Source: Candidatus Poribacteria bacterium (GTDB taxonomy: Bacteria; Abyssobacteria; SURF-5). Taken from it: a DNA stretch of 20,572 nt. A program made the position numbers and the translations under genes. This document shows positions 9,280-20,116 of this stretch, one piece after another. The notes under the pieces are model-generated. The model searched no databases. It was not told where the DNA came from and saw nothing but the letters and a program-made list of their open reading frames with translations. The stretch spans positions 1 through 20,572 of the forward strand of contig JACRIR010000270.1 in assembly GCA_016215705.1 (NCBI GenBank), written 5' to 3'. How positions within the stretch are numbered: the first letter of the stretch is position 1; every line of letters begins with the position of its first letter.

Positions 9280-9307
9280 GTAGGGGCACGGCGCGCCGTG
9301 CCCCTAC
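9280..9307. repeat. Perfect 28-bp palindrome, GTAGGGGC type
   Basis: The sequence begins GTAGGGGCACGG and reads identically on the other strand for 28 bases. A related, imperfect hairpin with GGGCGCA arms is at 20027-20052. Such GTAG-starting palindromes recall REP elements. Confidence 0.75.
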
Positions 9308-14333: not shown

Positions 14334-16742
14334 GTGAGAAGACCCCTCGTCTGGCTCCTGGTTGCCCTCATGTCCGGAGGAGCGGTCTCCTCTCTCTTTC
14401 ATCCTCCTCTCAAACCTCTTCTCGTTGCGTTTCTGTGCGCGTGGCTCATCGCAGTTCTCTTTCTTATATTCAGGAAACGAACGCCCTCCGCGTTCTTTGT
14501 CTTGTCCGCAACATTCCTCCTCGGCGCATGCGGCTATCTACTGCGTGACTTCGTGGCGGAGATACCCGATCAACTAGCCTTGAGCTACGCCTCCGAACAA
14601 ATGGCGCCCGCCACGCTCACCGGAATCGTCTCGAAAACCCAGTCAACGTACGAAAGCGGAAGCATCACTTTCCTGCTCGATGCAGAAACCATTGAAACCC
14701 ACGGCCGAAGCGAACCCGTGAGTGGCTGCGCGCAGGTGACCTGGCGGGAGCCCTCCGCCCGAATCGATCTCGGCGATAAGGTTTCGGTCAAGGGACGTGT
14801 GAGTCTCGCCCGGGGCTTCAAGAATCCCGGCGTATTCGACTACGAACGCTTCGTGCATCGCCGGGGCATCTTCACTAAAATGTTTGCGCGGGGCTCCGCC
14901 GCAGTCACCGTTCAGAGCAAGGGCGCAGCCAACTGGGTCTTGCGCCTGAGAGAATATGTCCGCCGCGAGAGCCTCGATATCATCTCGCGCTCCACCCGCA
15001 CCCTCGAGACGCGCGCTTTTGTGTCTGCTATGCTGCTCGACGAGCGCAGCCTCTTGACAGATGAGATGAACGACTGGTTCAAGCGAACCGGCACGTTTCA
15101 CGTCATCTCGATTTCCGGCCTGCATGTGGGCCTGGTCTACCTGTTTGTCTCTTTGGCCCTCACACCATTGCCTTTGGGCCCCAAGGCGCGCGTCAGTATC
15201 GGAATTCTGTTTGTGTGGCTATATGCGTTCATTACCGGCGCCAGCGTTCCCGTGATACGGTCTGCGACAATGCTTACGCTCATACTGGCGGAATACTATC
15301 TCGCGCGCGAAAGCGATTTCCTGTCAGCAATCGCGCTTGCCGCGTTCGTCATTGTGGCGTTCGATCCACTCGTCATTGACGATGTCAGCTTTCAACTCTC
15401 GTTTATGGCTGTCGGTCTCTTGTGCGCCTTTGAGCCGCTCTTCACGAATACGATCTATCCGCTCGCACAGCAAAAGCTGCCGGGAATCGCGGGAACGGTA
15501 CTATACAAGCTGATGCTTACACTGTTAGCCTCACTCGTGGTTGGAATCGGCATGAGCCCCGTCGTCGCTTATCACTTCAATCAGGCATCCCTCGTATTTC
15601 CCATCGCCAATCTCATCGTCATACCGGTGGTGTCCCTCGTGCTCGCAGCCGGTTTCGTATGCCTGCTCGCGGGTTTCCTCTGGATGAAAGCGGCAATCGC
15701 ATTCGGCCTCCTTCTCGAGGCCTTCTCATGGGTTGTCTTTTGGACCGTGAAACTGTGCTCGCTTATTCCTGCAAGCTCGATAACCGTCGCATCACCGCCG
15801 TTGTGGATTCTTGGGCTGGAGGCCTTCGCGATAATGCTCGTGTGGTGGCGCGGTCGCCCGGCGCGAAGAGTCGCGGTCTTTGCCACTGTGGCTTTGCTGA
15901 CCGCAGGGGCCGCTCTCGCCGTCCAGCGGTTCTCCAGCAACCGCCTCCGCGCAACGTTCCTTGACCTCGGTGACGCTGACTCGTGCCTGGTCGAGTTTCC
16001 CGATGGACGCACGATGCTCGTTGACACAGGCTTCGCAAGCCATTACATCGACTGCGGCGAGCGCGTAATAGCTCCGTTTCTCTGGAAAAAAGGAATTAGG
16101 CGAATAGACACTCTCGTGCTTACTCACCCCGATGCCGACCACATCGGCGGAGCCCCTTTCATTATTGATAATTTCATGATCGGTCGCCTTGCGCTTCCGG
16201 AAACTCCCCGCGCTCACGAGGGTTTCCTGCCGATTCTCGAAAACACAAAACAGAAAAACGTTCCCGTGGAACTCGTCAGCGCCGGAGGACTGCTCACGGA
16301 CACAAATCAAGTCCGCATCGAGGTCCTCAATCCCCCGCCGGACACCTCATCCCAAACCCTTTCCGACAATGAAGGCTCCGTTGTCTTTAGGATTACCTAT
16401 GGCGACATAAACCTCCTCCTTCCGGCAGACGCCGAGAAGAAGACACTCAGCCTCATGTGCGACTCCGGCCGGGAAATCCGCAGCCGTGTCCTCAAAGCGC
16501 CCCATCACGGCCTGGCAAGTGGCTTCAATGCGCGATTCGTCAAAATGGTCAGCCCGGAACTGATTGTGATCTCAGGCGCCAAACACCGGGCCGGCAGACT
16601 CTCCGGCAGCCGCCTCTCACGATATGCTCCCTTTGCAAAGACCGTCCTCTCCACCCATGATTCCGGCGCAATCGTGCTCGAAACCGATGGCCGCCACCTC
16701 GCTACAACTCTTACACGCTGTCCGCGCGCAAGCCTGTTTTGA
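14334..16742 (+). CDS. comEC: DNA internalization competence protein ComEC/Rec2
   Basis: ComEC forms the inner-membrane channel that passes single-stranded DNA into the cytoplasm during natural transformation. The 802-residue protein has the three-part family layout: N-terminal membrane segments with an OB-like soluble part (about 80-200), the Competence domain with many hydrophobic helices starting at FHVISISGLHVGLVY (about 256), and a C-terminal metallo-beta-lactamase-like domain from about residue 540. The latter shows FLDLGDADSCLVEF, VDTG, the metal-binding THPDADHIGG (His598 to Asp602-His603) and LKAPHHGL. It starts with GTG, 6 bases after the response regulator stop. No other competence genes (comEA, pilins) are nearby. 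Length and motifs look complete. An 18-bp hairpin lies about 57 bases after the stop. Confidence 0.95.
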   Translation: MRRPLVWLLVALMSGGAVSSLFHPPLKPLLVAFLCAWLIAVLFLIFRKRTPSAFFVLSATFLLGACGYLLRDFVAEIPDQLALSYASEQMAPATLTGIVSKTQSTYESGSITFLLDAETIETHGRSEPVSGCAQVTWREPSARIDLGDKVSVKGRVSLARGFKNPGVFDYERFVHRRGIFTKMFARGSAAVTVQSKGAANWVLRLREYVRRESLDIISRSTRTLETRAFVSAMLLDERSLLTDEMNDWFKRTGTFHVISISGLHVGLVYLFVSLALTPLPLGPKARVSIGILFVWLYAFITGASVPVIRSATMLTLILAEYYLARESDFLSAIALAAFVIVAFDPLVIDDVSFQLSFMAVGLLCAFEPLFTNTIYPLAQQKLPGIAGTVLYKLMLTLLASLVVGIGMSPVVAYHFNQASLVFPIANLIVIPVVSLVLAAGFVCLLAGFLWMKAAIAFGLLLEAFSWVVFWTVKLCSLIPASSITVASPPLWILGLEAFAIMLVWWRGRPARRVAVFATVALLTAGAALAVQRFSSNRLRATFLDLGDADSCLVEFPDGRTMLVDTGFASHYIDCGERVIAPFLWKKGIRRIDTLVLTHPDADHIGGAPFIIDNFMIGRLALPETPRAHEGFLPILENTKQKNVPVELVSAGGLLTDTNQVRIEVLNPPPDTSSQTLSDNEGSVVFRITYGDINLLLPADAEKKTLSLMCDSGREIRSRVLKAPHHGLASGFNARFVKMVSPELIVISGAKHRAGRLSGSRLSRYAPFAKTVLSTHDSGAIVLETDGRHLATTLTRCPRASLF

Positions 16743-16798
16743 TAGTTGGGTTCTTCCACCCCTTCAAAGTGTTGCCCCGTGAGACCGCGAACACCCAG

Positions 16799-16837
16799 AA
16801 AATCGGGGACACGATGCCGCATCGTGTCCCCGATTTT
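16799..16837. terminator. Perfect 18-bp hairpin, GGGGACACGATG family, after comEC
   Basis: Both arms (16799-16816 and 16820-16837) pair perfectly around a CCG loop, and the right arm ends in TTTT. It shares the core GGGGACACGATG with hairpins at 19152-19202 and 20070-20116. It could work as a terminator, and it belongs to a dispersed family. Confidence 0.8.
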
Positions 16838-16870
16838 CCCCTTTCGCTTTTCGTGGCGGCCCTTTCACCC

Positions 16871-17048
16871 GTCATTCTGAGCCCCCTCATTGTCATTCTG
16901 AGCCCCCCTCATTGTCATTCTGAGCCCCCCTCATTGTCATTCTGAGCCCCCCTCATTGTCATTCTGAGCCCCCTCATTGTCATTCTGAGCCCTCCTCATT
17001 GTCATTCTGAGCCCTCCTCATTGTCATTCTGAGCGCAGCGAAGAATCC
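16871..17048 (+). repeat. Eight-unit GTCATTCTGAGC tandem array
   Basis: Units start at 16871, 16892, 16914, 16936, 16958, 16979, 17001 and 17023. Seven are shortened 21-22 bp units ending in a C-rich stretch and CTCATT; the last is a full unit ending in GCGAAGAATC. There are no unique spacers, so it is not a CRISPR array. Confidence 0.92.
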
Positions 17049-17235
17049 CGCCTTTCCTTTCGACCTCCTCTCGGCCAGGAACCATGAACCATAAACCCGA
17101 AACCCGCGCCTTGCGCGATCCCCCTTTTTCATCACTCATCATTCGTTGTTTCCCCTTTCCCCTTTTTTCTCTTTGCACTTTTGACATTTTCGCTCCCCTT
17201 CGTCTTTCGTCTTGCCCCTTTCGTCTTTATTTGGT

Positions 17236-17264
17236 TTGCATTGCCACTGGCCAGTTGCTATAAT
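17236..17264 (+). promoter_or_regulatory. Extended -10 promoter upstream of the sppA-like gene
   Basis: A perfect TATAAT at 17259-17264 is preceded by TGC, forming an extended -10. A weak TTGCAT at 17236-17241 lies at 17 bases. Transcription from here would give a leader of about 75 bases before the ATG and would run through the sigma factor gene. Confidence 0.6.
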
Positions 17265-17344
17265 GTGTTCGCATGGCGCGTGGGAATCACGGACGGACCC
17301 GCGCTTCGGCTCTGTCTCAATAATAACCGACGGAGAAAAACATC

Positions 17345-18232
17345 ATGAAACAAGGCTGCCGAACAAGCCTGCTCATACTCCTGCTTATCGGTCTCGTCTT
17401 CGGAATGGGCTTGATCGCGATCTTGATTTTTGTCTCACAGGGCAACCGTCAACTGTGGGTGCTCCCGTCGCGCGAGAGCGTGGCCATCGTAGAAGTCGTG
17501 GGCCCAATCTTCGACGTCGAGGAACCTCTCAAACAGTTGGAGTCATACGCAGGCAACTCGTCGGTCAAAGCAATCGTTGTTCGCGTCGACAGCCCGGGTG
17601 GCGCAGTCGCGCCCTCGCAGGAAATGTTCGAGGAAATGAAGAAGGCGAAAGCGAAGGGCAAGAAGATCGTCGTCTCCATGGGCTCAGTCGCCGCCTCGGG
17701 TGGCTACTACGTCTCGTGCGCGGCTGATGAAATATACGCGAACCCCGGAACTATCACCGGCAGCATAGGCGTGATCGCCGAGTTCCCGAATGTCGAGGGC
17801 CTCATGAACAAGATCGGGATAAAATTCGACACCATAAAATCAGGCAAGTTCAAGGATACCGGCTCGGCGTTCCGACCCATGACCCCCGAAGAACAGCAAC
17901 TCCTTCAGGAAATGCTCATGGACGTGTATGAGCAATTCGTCGAGGCTGTTGCCGACAGCCGAAAAATGCCGATAGATGAAGTCAGAAAATACGCCGACGG
18001 CCGCGTTTTCAGCGGGCGACAAGCGCTCGAATACGGATTCGTGGACGCGCTGGGCACTCAGAACGACGCCATCAAACGGGCGGCGCAACTGGCCGGCATC
18101 AAAGGCGAGCCTCGTGTGCTCAAGAAGAGCAAGAAACGCTTCCCGTTCGGCGGATTCGCCGACGAGATGTTGCGCCAGTACCTTCCCCTGGCCCAGCCCG
18201 CGTATGCGCCCGTGCTCTACCTGCTTCGCTGA
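17345..18232 (+). CDS. sppA: Signal peptide peptidase SppA-like, S49 family
   Basis: This 295-residue membrane-bound serine protease should degrade cleaved signal peptides or other membrane-linked peptides. It has one N-terminal membrane segment (about residues 9-30) and a single S49 domain, like the short Bacillus-type SppA rather than the double-domain E. coli form. The nucleophile candidate is Ser118 in MGSVAASGGYY; the general base candidate is Lys170 in the SGKFKDTGS segment. DSPGGAVAPS (82-91) and GTITGSIGV (135-143) are also family motifs. CGGAG at 17331-17335 lies 9 bases before the ATG. The sigma factor gene starts 18 bases after its stop, so they are probably one unit. Confidence 0.94.
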   Translation: MKQGCRTSLLILLLIGLVFGMGLIAILIFVSQGNRQLWVLPSRESVAIVEVVGPIFDVEEPLKQLESYAGNSSVKAIVVRVDSPGGAVAPSQEMFEEMKKAKAKGKKIVVSMGSVAASGGYYVSCAADEIYANPGTITGSIGVIAEFPNVEGLMNKIGIKFDTIKSGKFKDTGSAFRPMTPEEQQLLQEMLMDVYEQFVEAVADSRKMPIDEVRKYADGRVFSGRQALEYGFVDALGTQNDAIKRAAQLAGIKGEPRVLKKSKKRFPFGGFADEMLRQYLPLAQPAYAPVLYLLR

Positions 18233-18250
18233 AGTTGAATAGGTTCTGCT

Positions 18251-19147
18251 ATGAGCGACATGGAATACGAAGAGGAAATCCCCGACCTTTCTCCTCAGCC
18301 CAAAGAAGCGCGCATCCGCTACTACGACGGCAGTATGAGCGCTTATTTGAAGGAAATATCGCGCCAGTCTCTCTTGTCCTACGAAGAGGAGAGAGACCTC
18401 GCGAAACGCATGGAGAAAGGGGATTCCGAAGCCCGCAAGAAACTGATTATCGCGAATCTGCGTTTGGTCGTCAGCGTGGCCAACAAGTATCTCCACTACG
18501 GCCTGCCTCTACTCGACCTAATTGAGGAAGGCAACCTTGGCCTCATCAAAGCCGTCGATAAGTACGACTACAAGAAAGGATACAAGTTCAGCACGTATGC
18601 CACCTGGTGGATACGCCAGGCCATATCCCGGTTCCTCGCAAACTACGGGCGCACCATCCGCATACCCGTCTACATGACCGAGAACGTCATCAAATACAAG
18701 CAGGCGACCCAGCGGCTTTACAAGGAGTGGGGCCGCAAACCAACAATCGAAGAAGTGGCGAACGAGCTTGATATCACCCCGCAAGAAGTCGCCGAGTTAC
18801 ACAAATACTCCCAGAAAATAACCTCTCTCGAGACCGCCGTCGGCGCTGAAGACGGCGCCGAATTGGGTGACCTTATCGAGGACACTCACTCGATCGATCC
18901 GGTCGACCTCGTCGCAAAAGTGTTCCGTGATCAAAAGCTGATGCAGTTGCTGACCCAATTGACGCAACGCGAGGCCGACATCCTCCAGTTCCGATACGGC
19001 CTCGTCGACGGCGACCCGCATACACTCAAAGAAACGGGCGACCGCTTCAAGCTGACACGTGAGCGGATTCGTCAGATCGAGGCCAAGGCTCTTAAGAAAC
19101 TGAGGAAACTGATCGGCCAAAGCAACATCGACTTCGAGGAGTTCTGA
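18251..19147 (+). CDS. RNA polymerase sigma factor, sigma-70 family (RpoD/RpoS-like)
   Basis: This 298-residue sigma factor directs RNA polymerase to promoters. It has region 1.2 (about 28-60), region 2 (64-134, with [17 protein letters not shown] and [14 protein letters not shown]), region 3 (143-218) and region 4 with a helix-turn-helix at about 258-285 ([18 protein letters not shown]). It lacks region 1.1 and the long non-conserved insert of large housekeeping sigmas. Length and motif strength suit a compact primary sigma or a group 2 (RpoS-like) factor; I cannot separate these here, so I give no gene symbol. No strong Shine-Dalgarno is seen. A 24-bp perfect hairpin starts 5 bases after the stop and may end the transcript. 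Confidence 0.94.
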
Positions 19148-19151
19148 CACT

Positions 19152-19202
19152 CGGTGTTTATTCGGGGACACGATGCCTCATCGTGTCCCCGAATAAACAC
19201 CG
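19152..19202. terminator. Perfect 24-bp hairpin, GGGGACACGATG family, after the sigma gene
   Basis: Arms 19152-19175 and 19179-19202 are exact reverse complements around a CCT loop. A second, right-arm-only copy lies at 19210-19230. It starts 5 bases past the stop, placed where a terminator would be, but it has no T-run. Confidence 0.85.
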
Positions 19203-19275
19203 GACACCTTGCGACATCGTGTCCCCGAATTAGCGAACAGTCGGTTCTCTGAAAGTGACCGACCCCTGCGCACGC

Positions 19276-19302
19276 GTCATTCTGAGTGAAGCGAAGAATC
19301 TC
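19276..19302 (+). repeat. Single GTCATTCTGAG-type repeat
   Basis: A lone full unit with one change (GAGTGAAGCGAAG in place of GAGCGAAGCGAAG) in the apt leader region. A more diverged copy is at 20141-20167, before the tRNA. Confidence 0.8.
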
Positions 19303-19479
19303 CCTGGCAGTTTGTTTGAGGAAGAAATATGAAGCCGAAAACCAAAAACGAGCTTGCCCCCCTTTTCTCCAATATTTCGCCTTTCGCTTCTTTAACCCTG
19401 AACCCTAAACCCTGAACCACTAACCATAAACCGTGAACTGTGAACCATAAACTGCGAACCCGCTTTCTGAGGAGGAACA

Positions 19480-19998
19480 ATGGACGAACAACTGAAAAAA
19501 ACCATACGTAGCATCCCCGATTTCCCGAAGAAGGGCATCCTCTTCAGAGATATCACCACACTCCTTAAGGACAAAAAGGCGTTCACCGAAGCCATCAACC
19601 TCCTCGTGTCACGCCACAAGGGAAAAGGCATCGACAAAATTGTCGGAATGGAATCGCGCGGATTCATCCTCGGCGCGCCGATGGCCTACCTGCTCGGCGC
19701 CGGCTTCGTGCCCGTCCGCAAAAAAGGCAAGCTCCCCGGCGAATCCTACAAGGCCACCTACGAGCTCGAATACGGCAGCGACCATCTCGAAATTCATAAG
19801 GATGCCATCGAGCGCGGCGAGAAAGTCCTCATCGTCGATGACCTGCTTGCCACCGGCGGAACCGCCGTCGCCACCATCGAGCTCGTGCAGAACTTCGACG
19901 CCAAAATCCACGGTCTCGATTTCCTCATCGAACTCGAAGACCTCAACGGCCGCGACAAGCTGAAAAAATTCGATGTCTTTTCTTTGATTAAGTTTTAG
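19480..19998 (+). CDS. apt: Adenine phosphoribosyltransferase
   Basis: Apt makes AMP from adenine and PRPP in purine salvage, in the cytoplasm. The 172-residue length is typical. Seen motifs are the N-terminal FPKKGILFRDITTLL (15-29), ESRGF (58-62), the flexible-loop region RKKGKLPGESY (80-90) and the PRPP-binding VLIVDDLLATGGTA (116-129). The start is set by AGGAGG at 19470-19475 close to the ATG. It stands alone between repeat-filled gaps. Two hairpins follow at 20027-20052 and 20070-20116. Confidence 0.96.
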   Translation: MDEQLKKTIRSIPDFPKKGILFRDITTLLKDKKAFTEAINLLVSRHKGKGIDKIVGMESRGFILGAPMAYLLGAGFVPVRKKGKLPGESYKATYELEYGSDHLEIHKDAIERGEKVLIVDDLLATGGTAVATIELVQNFDAKIHGLDFLIELEDLNGRDKLKKFDVFSLIKF

Positions 19999-20026
19999 GG
20001 TATAATAGGCTTGTTGTATGGCGCCG

Positions 20027-20052
20027 TAAGGGCGCAGCATGTTGCGCCCTAT
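20027..20052. repeat. GGGCGCA hairpin, GTAGGGGC-type palindrome relative
   Basis: AGGGCGCA (20029-20036) pairs with TGCGCCCT (20043-20050) around a 6-base loop, 30 bases after the apt stop. It looks like a decayed member of the palindrome type seen whole at 9280-9307. Confidence 0.55.
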
Positions 20053-20069
20053 CATTCCCGCGCAGGCGT

Positions 20070-20116
20070 GCGTTTATTCGGGGACACGATGCGACATCGT
20101 GTCCCCGAATAAACGC
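20070..20116. terminator. Perfect 22-bp hairpin, GGGGACACGATG family, after apt
   Basis: Arms 20070-20091 and 20095-20116 are exact reverse complements around a CGA loop. Inner sequence matches the 19152-19202 copy; the outermost bases differ on both arms together, keeping the pairing. Confidence 0.85.

Follow-up and report, generated by a model that had tools for sequence, protein, structure and literature searches.

A REP-like family of perfect hairpins whose matched outer arms look like one flank copied back onto the other side

Short palindromes that occur in high copy number between genes, and mostly downstream of them, are characteristic of the GTAG REPs, BIMEs and REPINs with their RAYT (TnpA-REP) transposases. 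Comparable repeats are the TIRs of TIRtrons or TIRYT elements (Di Nocera et al. 2013, PMC3733652; subclass 2.1 of Quentin et al. 2018, PMC6006769), with a consensus motif GGGGWSAS in the terminal repeats, self-complementary units, dimers and clusters, and an association with RAYT-like Y1 transposases. The hairpins described here, from the draft genome of a Candidatus Poribacteria bacterium, share the general features of the first group, but they have a long perfect stem closed by a 3-nt loop and no unpaired GTAG tag, which was absent 5′ of the hairpin in the flanks of the 177 copies collected. With the TIRs they share the GGGGWSAS motif, the self-complementary, dimeric and clustered organization and the association with a RAYT-like Y1 transposase; they differ in their 303 copies, in the lack of a transposase found with the exact repeat, and in having matched copy-specific arms and leftover half-cores. 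Rickettsia palindromic elements are palindromic repeats able to lie in frame inside protein genes, and the present 27-nt unit, equal to nine codons, likewise lies in frame in a Syntrophales gene, although it is much shorter, has another host and core, and is nearly always intergenic in this genome. Finally, in quasipalindrome template-switch mutation, as known from work in E. coli, fold-back copying perfects imperfect inverted repeats; the fold-back copying proposed here would also make inverted repeats match, but it would extend palindromes into their flanks, leave half-units behind and have acted at many natural loci. Altogether, we regard the family as REP-like, that is, of a known kind, with an unusual record of palindrome extension.

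The window, which is the whole stretch of 20,572 nt that was analysed, contains three complete hairpins and a broken one, each complete hairpin being preceded by a gene:

14334..16742, + strand: comEC-type competence gene, 5′ of hairpin 1 (Pfam domains Competence, DUF4131 and Lactamase_B)
16798..16838, no strand assigned: hairpin 1, arm GAAAATC plus core GGGGACACGATG, loop CCG, 19 bp
18251..19147, + strand: sigma-70-family sigma factor gene, 5′ of hairpin 2 (Pfam)
19152..19202, no strand assigned: hairpin 2, arm CGGTGTTTATTC plus core, loop CCT, 24 bp
19203..19236 (about), no strand assigned: leftover half-hairpin adjoining hairpin 2, on the + strand GACACCTTG-CGA-CATCGTGTCCCC-GAATTAGCGA
19480..19998, + strand: phosphoribosyltransferase gene (apt-like), 5′ of hairpin 3 (Pfam)
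20070..20116, no strand assigned: hairpin 3, arm GCGTTTATTC plus core, loop CGA, 22 bp

A previous sequence-only reading had described the three hairpins, with perfect stems and 3-nt loops, downstream of comEC, sigma and apt genes. This description holds, with hairpin 1 one pair longer than given and with Pfam support for the three gene types, whereas the half-hairpin, a fourth piece, had been overlooked. The hairpins start 56, 5 and 72 nt after the stop codons of the comEC-, sigma-70- and apt-type genes, respectively. Folded as DNA, they reach −22 to −32 kcal/mol (z −8.9 to −13.3), and no shuffled sequence folds as well. An Rfam scan of the window gave a single match above the gathering score, a tRNA, and no match of a hairpin to a known RNA family. 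The window also carries about eight tandem copies of a ~21-nt unit GTCATTCTGAGCCCCCCTCAT (16870-17050), a widespread repeat GTCATTCTGAGCGAAGCGAAGAATCTC as an inverted pair (1551-1632), and a perfect 28-nt palindrome GTAGGGGCACGGCGCGCCGTGCCCCTAC (9280-9307), perhaps another GTAG-type repeat.

The genome-wide search for the core proposed by that reading revealed many copies: 303 complete hairpins with the core GGGGACA-N3-TG-N3-CA-N3-TGTCCCC (pattern GGGGACANNNTGNNNCANNNTGTCCCC; none for the control pattern), and 159+163 occurrences of the 13-mer CGGGGACACGATG (none for its reversed control). With these zero controls, the family is not a product of chance. Because the bins are drafts, copy counts are lower bounds, and an autonomous element may be missing from them. 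The palindromic pattern had no site in 385 other genomes searched, including two of the same family but of other genera, a restricted distribution that is compatible with the recent spread previously suggested. A stricter pattern, scanned over 84,980 species genomes, matched only in Syntrophales/Deltaproteobacteria bins, and four of these, searched whole, contain 66, 95, 22 and 53 copies of the same 27-mer. They share the inner subclasses GATG and CTTG with this genome, where the 177 copies (degenerate ones included), collected from the 1.60 Mb that were read, belong mainly to GATG and CATG and some to CTTG.

In the Syntrophales bins, the 27-mer also lies in frame inside one enzyme gene (L053:2334-4373; L252:1013-3025 and L251:3-1367, both on the − strand), whose product, as we judge from the sequence, resembles an enzyme of the glycogen-debranching type. 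The unit has no stop codon in the three frames concerned, and the frame of the gene continues across the inserts, which read GTRCGIVSP, GHDAASCP and GDTMQHRVP depending on the bin; reading frames and copy numbers differ, and local multiplication varies between bins. A hairpin array upstream of a gene starting MYAVIKTGGKQHRV (rplU-like) likewise differs in hairpin number and class among three related bins (L054:5080-5480, L260 and L287). The present genome carries, in addition, a separate GTAG-REPIN family (GTAGGGGCGC...GCGCCC pairs, linker of ~21 nt), some copies of which have a hairpin in the linker and move as a composite (L057:1075, L082:15077, L087:5888 and others). Empty counterparts of these composites exist (L078:7320-7500, L068:9980-10150), and since the composite arms equal a recurring class, they do not decide the origin of the arms.

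The core GGGGACAC fits the GGGGWSAS consensus of TIRYT terminal repeats (PMC3733652; PMC6006769) and looks like one half of the terminal inverted repeat found with TIRYT/RAYT-like Y1 transposases. The REP-type assignment of the sequence-only reading was fair as far as REP-like is concerned, but the core fits the ends of TIRYT elements and not GTAG-tagged REPs. Y1 transposase genes (PF01797) are present in this genome: two near-identical ones on contig C28 are bounded by TTATTCCGGGGACATAATACC, and one on C225, whose protein matches NF047646 and Bac_DnaA_C and has a DnaA-like C-terminal domain, by GGGGTCAGGTCTTGAA. Elsewhere, related transposases have GGGGACACCATACCTAATTC, GGGGACACCTTACTTAA and similar sequences at their boundaries, and those found in Syntrophales end in GGGGACAGTATAC, GGGGACATAATACC, GGGGACGGTTCTA or GGGGGGACAGCTCCC. 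Ends of related elements share 7-11 bp with the hairpin, reaching 11 bp with subclasses CATG and CTTG for the ends GGGGACACCATAC or GGGGACACCTTAC. The Y1 transposases with GGGGACA ends of this genome and their relatives fit the TIRYT/TIRtron class. Y1 genes occur in three of the four Syntrophales bins (a profile search of the other, G386, gave no PF01797 match), and a plasmid search returned distant transposases only. No transposase flanked by the exact hairpin, and hence no RAYT gene of the kind the earlier reading had in mind, was found in the incomplete assemblies of this genome and the four Syntrophales bins; we therefore infer mobilization by a TIRYT-like enzyme and do not claim membership in the class. 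In several TIRYT elements (L121, L123, L133, L211, L222, L225, L227 and L228) the flank outside GGGG complements an inner part of the terminal repeat, so that each end can fold alone; this complementarity may represent guide-target pairing.

With a simple gene finder, crude but in agreement on the window with the Pfam-supported genes, 155 of 165 copies lie between genes, though 82% of the sequence is coding. Clustering near stop codons, which the sequence-only reading had proposed as a check, was borne out: of the 155 intergenic copies, 93 (60%) lie at most 100 nt from a stop codon, whereas random intergenic positions do so in 25% of cases (p ~2e-20). Hairpins are overrepresented in convergent spacers (27 vs ~14 expected) and underrepresented in divergent ones (13 vs ~40). 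Loop orientation shows no bias with respect to the gene strand (56 vs 55). We propose that intergenic sites and sites after stop codons are where a copy is least harmful and hence where most copies persist.

Among copies selected only by their core, pairing at outer positions 1-8 reaches 75-91%, compared with 29-83% expected from base composition, and it falls to chance level from position 11; outside the REPIN composites, 150 copies carry 87 distinct paired arms, the shortest included. Positions 7-8 vary freely yet stay paired (26/27 and 26/27; 22/24 and 23/24; Fisher p ~3e-19). In the core, there are 97 one-sided changes against 3 compensated ones, a ratio to be read with a match filter (at most three core changes, both arms together) that partly disfavours double changes. 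An excess of one-sided changes at position 8 (29) is probably due to a G.T subfamily (GGGGACAT...GTGTCCCC), also common in Syntrophales. The 97:3 ratio indicates that pairing is not kept up once a copy has been inserted: the arms are matched at first and decay later. On these grounds we reject ongoing correction of, or selection on, pairing, and continuing selection on structure, which the earlier reading had offered among the causes of the matched arms, is not supported. On the other hand, arm sequence in this genome is not arbitrary, since the arms conform to WWAWTC and several classes recur (GAAAATC; GC[C/T]TTATTC; CCC[T/A]TAATTC; GCTTATTC, seen 10 times), AAAA-type arms being almost confined to the inner class GATG. 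Part of the arm would therefore be inherited or chosen with the target; that is, it may travel with the element or reflect target choice. Insertion into pre-existing palindromes was considered and rejected, because the only unfilled palindrome of TTATTC, TAATTC or AAAATC type with a gap of 0-8 was a TTATTC pair with gap 2 located inside another repeat. In Syntrophales, 48 of 71 copies have 0-1 paired outer bases, and some carry long arms whose sequence is arbitrary, the longest reaching 18 bp (L281).

To account for these features, we propose that each hairpin is a copy of a short, non-autonomous element of REP-like type, whose palindromic core of 27 bp reads GGGGACAC-N4-N3-N4'-GTGTCCCC, that this element was most likely spread by a TIRYT/RAYT-like Y1 (HUH) transposase acting on the single-stranded hairpin, and that the matched outer arms would mostly be made at or soon after insertion by fold-back template switching. 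A growing strand that has copied one arm would switch at the palindrome and copy the other arm and its flank in reverse, which would turn one flank into the exact complement of the other and, in some cases, leave a half-core in place. We hold this account, taken as a whole, to be probable, if by a modest measure.

The clean orthologous before/after comparison comes from one locus. In L240 (bin G387) a hairpin has unpaired flanks, while its ortholog L239 (bin G389; 94.7% identity over 2.5 kb) carries an insert, AGGGGGGCGTTTACGGGGACACGATGC, that exactly matches the reverse complement of the right arm together with the right flank; 14-bp arms result, and the original left half-core remains upstream. 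By its sequence, this structure is what fold-back template switching would be expected to produce. In the present genome, 29 half-cores in the L239-like orientation lie at most 50 nt from a hairpin, compared with 2 in the opposite orientation. At these 29 loci, pairing with the far flank averages 7.4 of 8 positions for the arm beside the hairpin and 5.7 of 8 for that of the leftover half-core; the new arm pairs better in 22 loci and worse in 2 (p = 4e-5). Hairpin 2 of the window, with its adjoining half-hairpin, is one of these loci: on the − strand, the old arm TCGCTAATTC pairs with the far flank at 6 of 8 positions and the new arm GTGTTTATTC at 8 of 8. The gene-conversion-like process between arms that the sequence-only reading had listed among its options thus gains support from the L239/L240 pair and the 29 loci. 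In a second orthologous comparison, L053 has TTTTAAT/ATTAAAA arms where L251 and L252 lack the left arm, which is compatible with fold-back copying but only suggestive. A half-core beside a hairpin could also result if a new copy inserted next to or within an older one whose other half was lost, and fold-back artefacts of amplification or assembly are a caveat for these structures. Tandem arrays of 29-33 bp half-units (arm plus core), each ending in one complete hairpin, were also observed (L071:18099-18272, L069 near 5500, L162:6638-6730).

The alternative that carries most weight is that the arms belong to the mobile element, with several master subfamilies differing in their arms. The transposase would need a paired lower stem of any sequence, only matched copies would propagate, and matched variants would accumulate. 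The WWAWTC motif, the recurring classes and the near-restriction of AAAA-type arms to GATG are expected from it, as are the similar AT-rich outer arms of related TIR ends (TTATTCC, AATTC, ATTTT and AAAAATAT), and for the recurring classes and AT-rich transposon ends we keep it as a possible, if rather unlikely, explanation. However, many Syntrophales copies of the same core are armless, and spread there therefore does not depend on arms; the core has hardly any two-sided changes, and one-sided outer intermediates are few; and L239/L240 shows an arm arising at a fixed locus. The same pair, which suggests an armless insertion that gained arms later, speaks against the idea that insertion itself makes the arms: the hairpin would be joined at one end only and repair synthesis from the 3′ end would copy the adjoining flank, every insertion being an inverted duplication of its target. 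Arms that look matched from the start and later decay on one side, roughly as fast as the core, would agree with it, but most Syntrophales copies lack arms and arm classes recur in this genome, and we consider it improbable. Should it nevertheless apply, which seems doubtful, a Y1-type enzyme would join the 27-nt hairpin at one end and a hairpin-primed host polymerase would copy 7-18 nt of target, each insertion then carrying an inverted target duplication as a kind of target-site scar; we know of no earlier description of such a scar.

A different possibility is that the hairpins are RNA elements, either bidirectional transcription terminators or 3′-end stabilizers, whose structure is kept by selection after insertion. 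Their concentration after stop codons, the convergent enrichment and divergent depletion, and the GAAAATC copies with A and T runs inside the stem would suit such a role. Nevertheless, no T-run follows the stem (T 0.23-0.27 in the following 16 nt), for which reason an intrinsic terminator is rejected, and a terminator scan of the window listed none of the hairpins; the 97:3 ratio argues against selection on pairing, and REPs of other bacteria are placed likewise relative to genes (PMC3733652), so that placement alone may reflect tolerance. We consider this RNA reading very unlikely.

Under fold-back template switching, our preferred reading, this genome keeps what looks like the record of a copying error, in which matched outer letters are one flank copied back onto the other side. 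When hairpins are perfect but their arms vary, selection for structure is the usual interpretation. In this family, both the arm statistics and the before/after comparison favour a copying process, and surveys of RNA structure should therefore be wary of compensatory changes counted in repeats. Together, the loci would amount to a natural collection of fold-back template switches, events otherwise examined with laboratory reporters, and the hairpins offer a family of substrates for testing the poorly known TIRYT transposases. Moreover, the presence of the same 27-mer in very different bacteria suggests either horizontal spread or its repeated generation by related transposases.
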